Shown here in pieces: positions 32,691 through 33,317 of a stretch of 34,107 bases of DNA. The translations under genes and the position numbers were made by a program. This DNA is from Candidatus Altimarinota bacterium (GTDB lineage Bacteria; Patescibacteriota; Gracilibacteria; BD1-5; UBA2023): the NCBI GenBank assembly GCA_014377245.1, contig JACMPX010000041.1:1-34107 (forward strand), read 5' to 3'. Each line of letters opens with the position of its first letter. Positions within the stretch are counted from its first letter, which is position 1. A model generated the notes under the pieces. That model had not been told where the DNA came from. It did not search any database and saw only the letters and a program-made list of their open reading frames with translations.

Positions 32691-33317
32691 CTATAACCAA
32701 TCAACTATGTCAGCGATCTCAGCCTGTGTGATAGTATGCCCTATCGGATAGTATATCAGGGTCGGCAAGAGTCCGATATCTCGGACGAATCCACTTGTCA
32801 GCTCACTCGCAGCAAAAGGTATCACTCTATCCTCCGTCCCATGTCCGATGAATACCCTTTTTTTATTATATTTTCGGAGATCTATATTCGATACATCGAT
32901 CTCTGTGAGTAGACGACCAGAGAGTGCGATAATCCCACCGATTAGCTCTGGAGATCTCCATAGTACATAATAGGACATGATCGCTCCTTGACTGAAACCC
33001 ATAAGGTATATTTGCTCTGGATCTATACCATATTGCCCTATCATCTATCTAATATATGCTATGATACTCTTATATCCTCGCTCGACATCTATAGTCTGAT
33101 ACACGGGCTTCCCAGTAGAGAAATCTACAGGAAACCAAGCATATCTGCCACCTCCAAGGTCAAATGGTCACCTCAATGAGAATACAGAGTATTCCTTTGG
33201 GAAATTCGCCTCCAAAGCAAATAAATCTGCCTCATTAGATAATATCCCATGGAGCATAATAATACATTTGGATTTCTCAGTTGTGTGTGATGGGATACGG
33301 GAGAGAGAAGTTATCAT
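32691..33317 (-). pseudogene. Carboxylesterase/phospholipase-like hydrolase interrupted by an in-frame UAG
   Basis: A frame of 209 codons reads as an alpha/beta hydrolase of the carboxylesterase type: IIMLHGILSNEADLFALE (oxyanion region), FSLRGPFDLGGGRYAWFP, IYLMGFSQGAIMSYY (Ser nucleophile in GFSQG), VFIGHGTEDRVIP (Asp) and IYYPIGHTI (His). At codon 91 (33045-33047, minus strand) there is a TAG between YIR and MIGQYGIDPEQ. In related proteins the sequence continues through this point, and a C-to-T change from CAG (Gln) would explain it. A shorter product from ATG 33044 would lack the oxyanion half. It is therefore a pseudogene, a sequence error, a polymorphism or a readthrough case. UGAs elsewhere are read as Gly. 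Confidence 0.7.

Follow-up and report, generated by a model that had tools for sequence, protein, structure and literature searches.

Genetic code 25, the code of Gracilibacteria and Absconditabacteria, reads UGA as glycine. According to PMC8629427, the code changes known in bacteria when it was published all reassign UGA, and a pseudogene that carries an in-frame stop may be mistaken for a case of reassignment. Among the papers listed in a literature search, none reports UAG readthrough in Gracilibacteria in its title or the opening of its abstract. Here we describe a carboxylesterase gene interrupted by an in-frame UAG in a stretch of 34,107 nucleotides (the window) of contig JACMPX010000041.1 from Candidatus Altimarinota bacterium. 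As in code 25, UGA encodes Gly in the host genome and its relatives; unlike the UGA change of that code, the present finding concerns UAG, which is still a stop in this organism.

The gene belongs to the same sequence family (PF02230) as the phospholipase/carboxylesterases represented by esterase PE8 (5dwd), the P. fluorescens carboxylesterase (1auo) and 4h0c, and shares with them the Ser-Asp-His triad and the fold, as predicted for the orthologue of its closest relative (G007). It differs from these enzymes in being interrupted by UAG and in having the Gly of the HGxG motif replaced by Leu. With its single in-frame stop, intact orthologues in relatives and no compensating decoding machinery found, it resembles the nonsense pseudogenes of other bacteria and differs from them only in its host, where the assignment of UGA to Gly leaves UAG and UAA as stops. 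The esterase is very probably a young pseudogene that arose by a recent nonsense mutation, and the interruption looks like an ordinary event of this kind rather than a new codon reading.

Organization of the interrupted esterase gene

The esterase is encoded on the minus strand (32691..33317) by two pieces in a single frame that ends in a terminal TAG. The interrupting TAG is codon 91 (33045..33047, minus strand), and the next codon is ATG. The sequence-only reading had recognized a hydrolase split at this UAG, and the single minus-strand frame from 33317 to 32691, with pieces of 90 and 117 residues, confirms it. The N-terminal piece (90 residues; 33048..33317, minus strand) carries the first strands and the HGxG loop, while the C-terminal piece (117 residues; 32691..33044, minus strand), whose ATG start abuts the TAG, contains all three triad residues. 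When read through, the esterase matches PF02230 over residues 7–208 (1.5e-24, 87.5 bits, cut-off 23). The C-terminal half matches the family by itself (9e-19, 68.6 bits), and the N-terminal half by itself has no Pfam match. This gene alone matches PF02230 in the host genome (G000; 779,031 bases in 54 contigs, 80% complete), which is the one genome sampled for the species. A scan for promoters and terminators around the gene found such sites to be no commoner than in shuffled sequences.

The putative catalytic residues, with roles assigned by homology, are Ser109 of the GFSQG motif as the nucleophile (32991..32993), Asp163 (32829..32831) and His194 (32736..32738), all on the minus strand and invariant in the five aligned sequences. 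The HGxG loop, which presumably contributes to the oxyanion hole, reads HGIL in the window, where V25-G26 has become I25-L26; codon 26 (33240..33242, minus strand) is TTA in place of the conserved Gly. This Gly is present in all four relatives and in five of five solved homologues among the alignments listed, and is lost only in the window. The proposal that the two halves fit together with all motifs therefore stands for the gap-free join and the triad, but not for the HGxG motif. In the orthologues the codon for this Gly is itself a recoded UGA in G007 and G008 (L002 and L004), and GGA in G006 and G009.

The structure of the G007 orthologue, predicted from an alignment of five rows (mean pLDDT 88.8), matches 5dwd (Foldseek E 4.4e-15) as well as 1auo. 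The UAG site maps inside a predicted helix (residues 75–96), twelve residues ahead of the strand leading to the nucleophile. Judging from this model, a break within the helix would not be the expected place for a workable two-chain enzyme.

Orthologues and the origin of the stop

The esterase gene was found in 5 of the 27 family genomes searched, namely the host and all four others of its genus, and in none of the 22 from other genera. The four orthologues, which include JACMPW010000008.1 (Candidatus Gracilibacteria), are 79, 60, 51 and 50% identical, match over nearly the full length and have no TAG. Both pieces of the interrupted gene join onto all four without a gap, so the frame is not a chance open frame. 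A scan of genome contigs confirmed one of 30 candidate stretches, which is the G007 orthologue. No esterase copies were confirmed in viral contigs, and phage records gave distant matches only (24–29% identical, in unannotated records).

All four orthologues have Glu at the UAG site (GAA in three, GAG in one). The recent mutation proposed earlier is retained, but not its suggested source, CAG, which we rejected as unlikely because of the Glu at this site in all four; the ancestral codon most likely specified Glu.

Selection and age of the interruption

Compared with G007, the esterase has a pN/pS of 0.235 overall, 0.238 in the N-terminal part and 0.234 in the C-terminal part. Other matched genes (n = 133) have a median of 0.213, with a 10–90% range of 0.079–0.421. 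Values near 0.24 in both parts rule out an old, decayed pseudogene. Since both halves are conserved in a protein-like manner, the interruption appears to be recent relative to the split from G007.

Amino-acid changes specific to the window outnumber those specific to G007, 12 to 7 with G006 as outgroup (p = 0.36) and 16 to 8 with any of three outgroups (p = 0.15), an excess that is not significant in either case. The window departs from the other four sequences at 6 of the 87 columns in which these are invariant, the stop included. The same count is 3 of 84 for G007, 2 of 83 for G006, 8 of 89 for G008 and 20 of 101 for G009, so a count of six is not exceptional, although the HGxG glycine is among them. 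As a check on selection after the stop arose, pN/pS was found not to be raised in the interrupted gene. The absence of any frameshift, the complete triad and a pN/pS typical of a functional gene count against the nonsense reading. For a plain pseudogene, the sequence-only reading had looked to orthologues without UAG combined with decay elsewhere in the gene: the UAG is missing from every orthologue and a conserved motif residue is lost too, but general decay is not seen.

UAG is used as a stop codon in the host genome

We surveyed 275,490 of the 779,031 bases of the host genome (35%) against proteins predicted from 594,152 bases of G007. With thresholds of 45% identity and 80 bits, this yielded 157 matched stretches (181 accepted), which together cover 50,262 aligned residues. 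A smaller, earlier version of the survey gave the same picture. At the 101 gene ends that match exactly, the host has TAG in 36 and TAA in 65; in G007, the counterparts of the 36 genes that end in TAG are divided between TAG (18) and TAA (18). UAG is an ordinary terminator in this genome.

A stop falls inside the matched frame in 20 of the 157 stretches. By our reading of the table, the match extends upstream of the likely start in 12 of these, and the substitution pattern is noncoding in 7 (pN/pS 0.67 to 2.05). Coding constraint on both sides of an interior stop is seen in the esterase only (pN/pS 0.25 and 0.23 in this survey), and no second interior UAG at a sense position occurs among the 157. 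A TAA followed by ATG at L066:15579-14590 was considered and rejected as an interior stop: it precedes the likely start, and the 61 codons upstream have a pN/pS of 1.47 with changes mostly outside third positions. At L058:30-573 (G000:C53), one G007 protein matches two different frames next to a tRNA, which may reflect a frameshift or an artefact of the start site.

Decoding machinery

The statement that UGA is already recoded is borne out by the comparison with G007, in which 264 TGA codons of the host are aligned to some codon different from TGA, and 177 of these are opposite Gly. An RNA search of the host genome gave 23 tRNA-like matches. ARAGORN read 21 different genes among them; the 22nd is a damaged CAU tRNA, and the 23rd is below the cut-off at a spot where ARAGORN found no tRNA. 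There is no CUA tRNA among the 22 tRNA genes of this incomplete set, and the tRNAs that were read in G007 (29 matches) and in G013, the most complete relative (36 over the cut-off), do not include one either. PylS (TIGR02367) gave weak partial matches only, none over the cut-off in the five genomes of the genus. Recoding of UAG was rejected on gene-end usage, the survey, tRNA content and PylS, and the readthrough raised in the sequence-only reading is not supported.

The UCA tRNA, the expected reader of UGA, was not found in the host or in the 93%-complete G007, and a pattern search for it gave no convincing match. G013 has a UCA tRNA at L165:909-987, which scores low and to which ARAGORN gives the label tRNA-SeC. 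Its absence from the host and G007 would be accounted for by incomplete genomes or by divergence of the tRNA. Damaged tRNA-like sequences at L047:113-212 (G000:C49) and L040:4513-4614 (G007:C1) are 80% identical between the two genomes; one of them adjoins tRNA-Phe, and its counterpart adjoins tRNA-Leu. Another damaged tRNA lies at L027:1501-1556, and such sequences are possibly tRNA-derived repeats. A near-perfect inverted repeat with arms of ∼26 bp at L028:1250-1315 (G000:C48) is matched by microRNA models through its hairpin shape only.

Release factor RF1 was not found in the host assembly, which has no match to PF00472 or PF03462. PF00472 has exactly one match in 23 of the 27 family genomes, including all 16 that are at least 90% complete; the G007 protein carries a PxT-type tripeptide, and we take it to be RF1-like. 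The prfA gene adjoins tRNA-Leu(CAA) and a gene that is presumably corA-like in the three genus genomes examined, G006, G007 and G009 (loci L040, L042 and L046, of which L040 is from G007). This block (L040:3586-6213) is missing from the whole host assembly, and a DNA search with it returned short pieces only, the best of them tRNA-like. The tRNA-Leu(CAA) is absent from the host genome, and the corA-like gene was not found there in a search that had no positive control, although a local comparison with this protein did find L042 and L046. Because these conserved neighbours are absent too, the missing RF1 probably reflects an incomplete assembly. Real loss of RF1 was set aside as less likely, the neighbours of prfA being gone as well. 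The lack of RF1 in the assembly, which leaves normal termination at UAG to be argued from end-of-gene usage, counts against the nonsense reading, as do the incomplete tRNA set and the single genome sampled for the species.

Alternative explanations

The TAG could be an error of the consensus or of the assembly, or it could come from a minor variant where the population is mixed, with the gene intact in most cells. The assembly is fragmented (54 contigs, 80% complete), the site lies ∼1.06 kb from the contig end, as judged from the length of locus L001, whose end is 790 b beyond the start of the gene, and the remainder of the gene appears functional. However, no other interior stop with coding sequence on both sides occurs in the 157 matched stretches, so the base quality looks good, and a separate motif residue is altered as well. 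We consider such an error or variant unlikely. A suppressor tRNA or the loss of RF1 might instead allow UAG to be read through or read as sense and yield the full-length protein, as would fit the RF1 missing from the assembly and the frame conserved on both sides of the UAG. This is extremely unlikely, given the 36 of 101 exactly matched genes that end at UAG, the lack of a CUA tRNA among the 22 of the host and those read in G007 and G013, and the failure of PylS to exceed the cut-off in any of five genomes. Moreover, the survey contains no second interior UAG, the RNA downstream of the UAG, searched for structure that stimulates readthrough, is not unusually structured (z 0.26), and the assembly also lacks the neighbours of RF1, namely tRNA-Leu(CAA) and the corA-like gene, as a gap would predict.

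Since AUG directly follows UAG, termination and restart are possible in principle, and the two resulting chains (90 and 117 residues) would then form the enzyme together. The sequence contains TAG ATG (G007 has GTG at the second of these codons), the two parts are equally conserved, and the C-terminal piece still matches PF02230 alone. A two-chain enzyme is nevertheless very unlikely: the split falls within predicted helix 75–96 rather than in a loop, it is absent from all four relatives, and the N-terminal piece has lost the HGxG Gly. Because the comparison with G007 spans all of the time since the two lineages diverged, most of the conservation is older than the split. The proposal that UAG-AUG marks a two-cistron, two-chain alpha/beta hydrolase with both pieces serving the cell, or that UAG is partly read through where UGA has already been given away, is also very unlikely.

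Proposed history and implications

In the favored explanation, a nonsense mutation at the invariant Glu codon would recently have broken a genus-specific, accessory carboxylesterase/phospholipase gene (PF02230) in the host lineage. Ribosomes would terminate at the UAG and produce a 90-residue N-terminal piece; because this piece lacks the catalytic Ser, Asp and His, no active enzyme would be expected from it. The lost HGxG glycine may be a second sign of relaxed constraint. We infer a loss of function of recent date, with no suppression of the stop.

If UAG were read as sense, a second stop codon would be giving way in a code-25 lineage. The esterase serves instead as a warning that lone in-frame stops in recoded genomes need to be checked against orthologues and gene ends before recoding is proposed.
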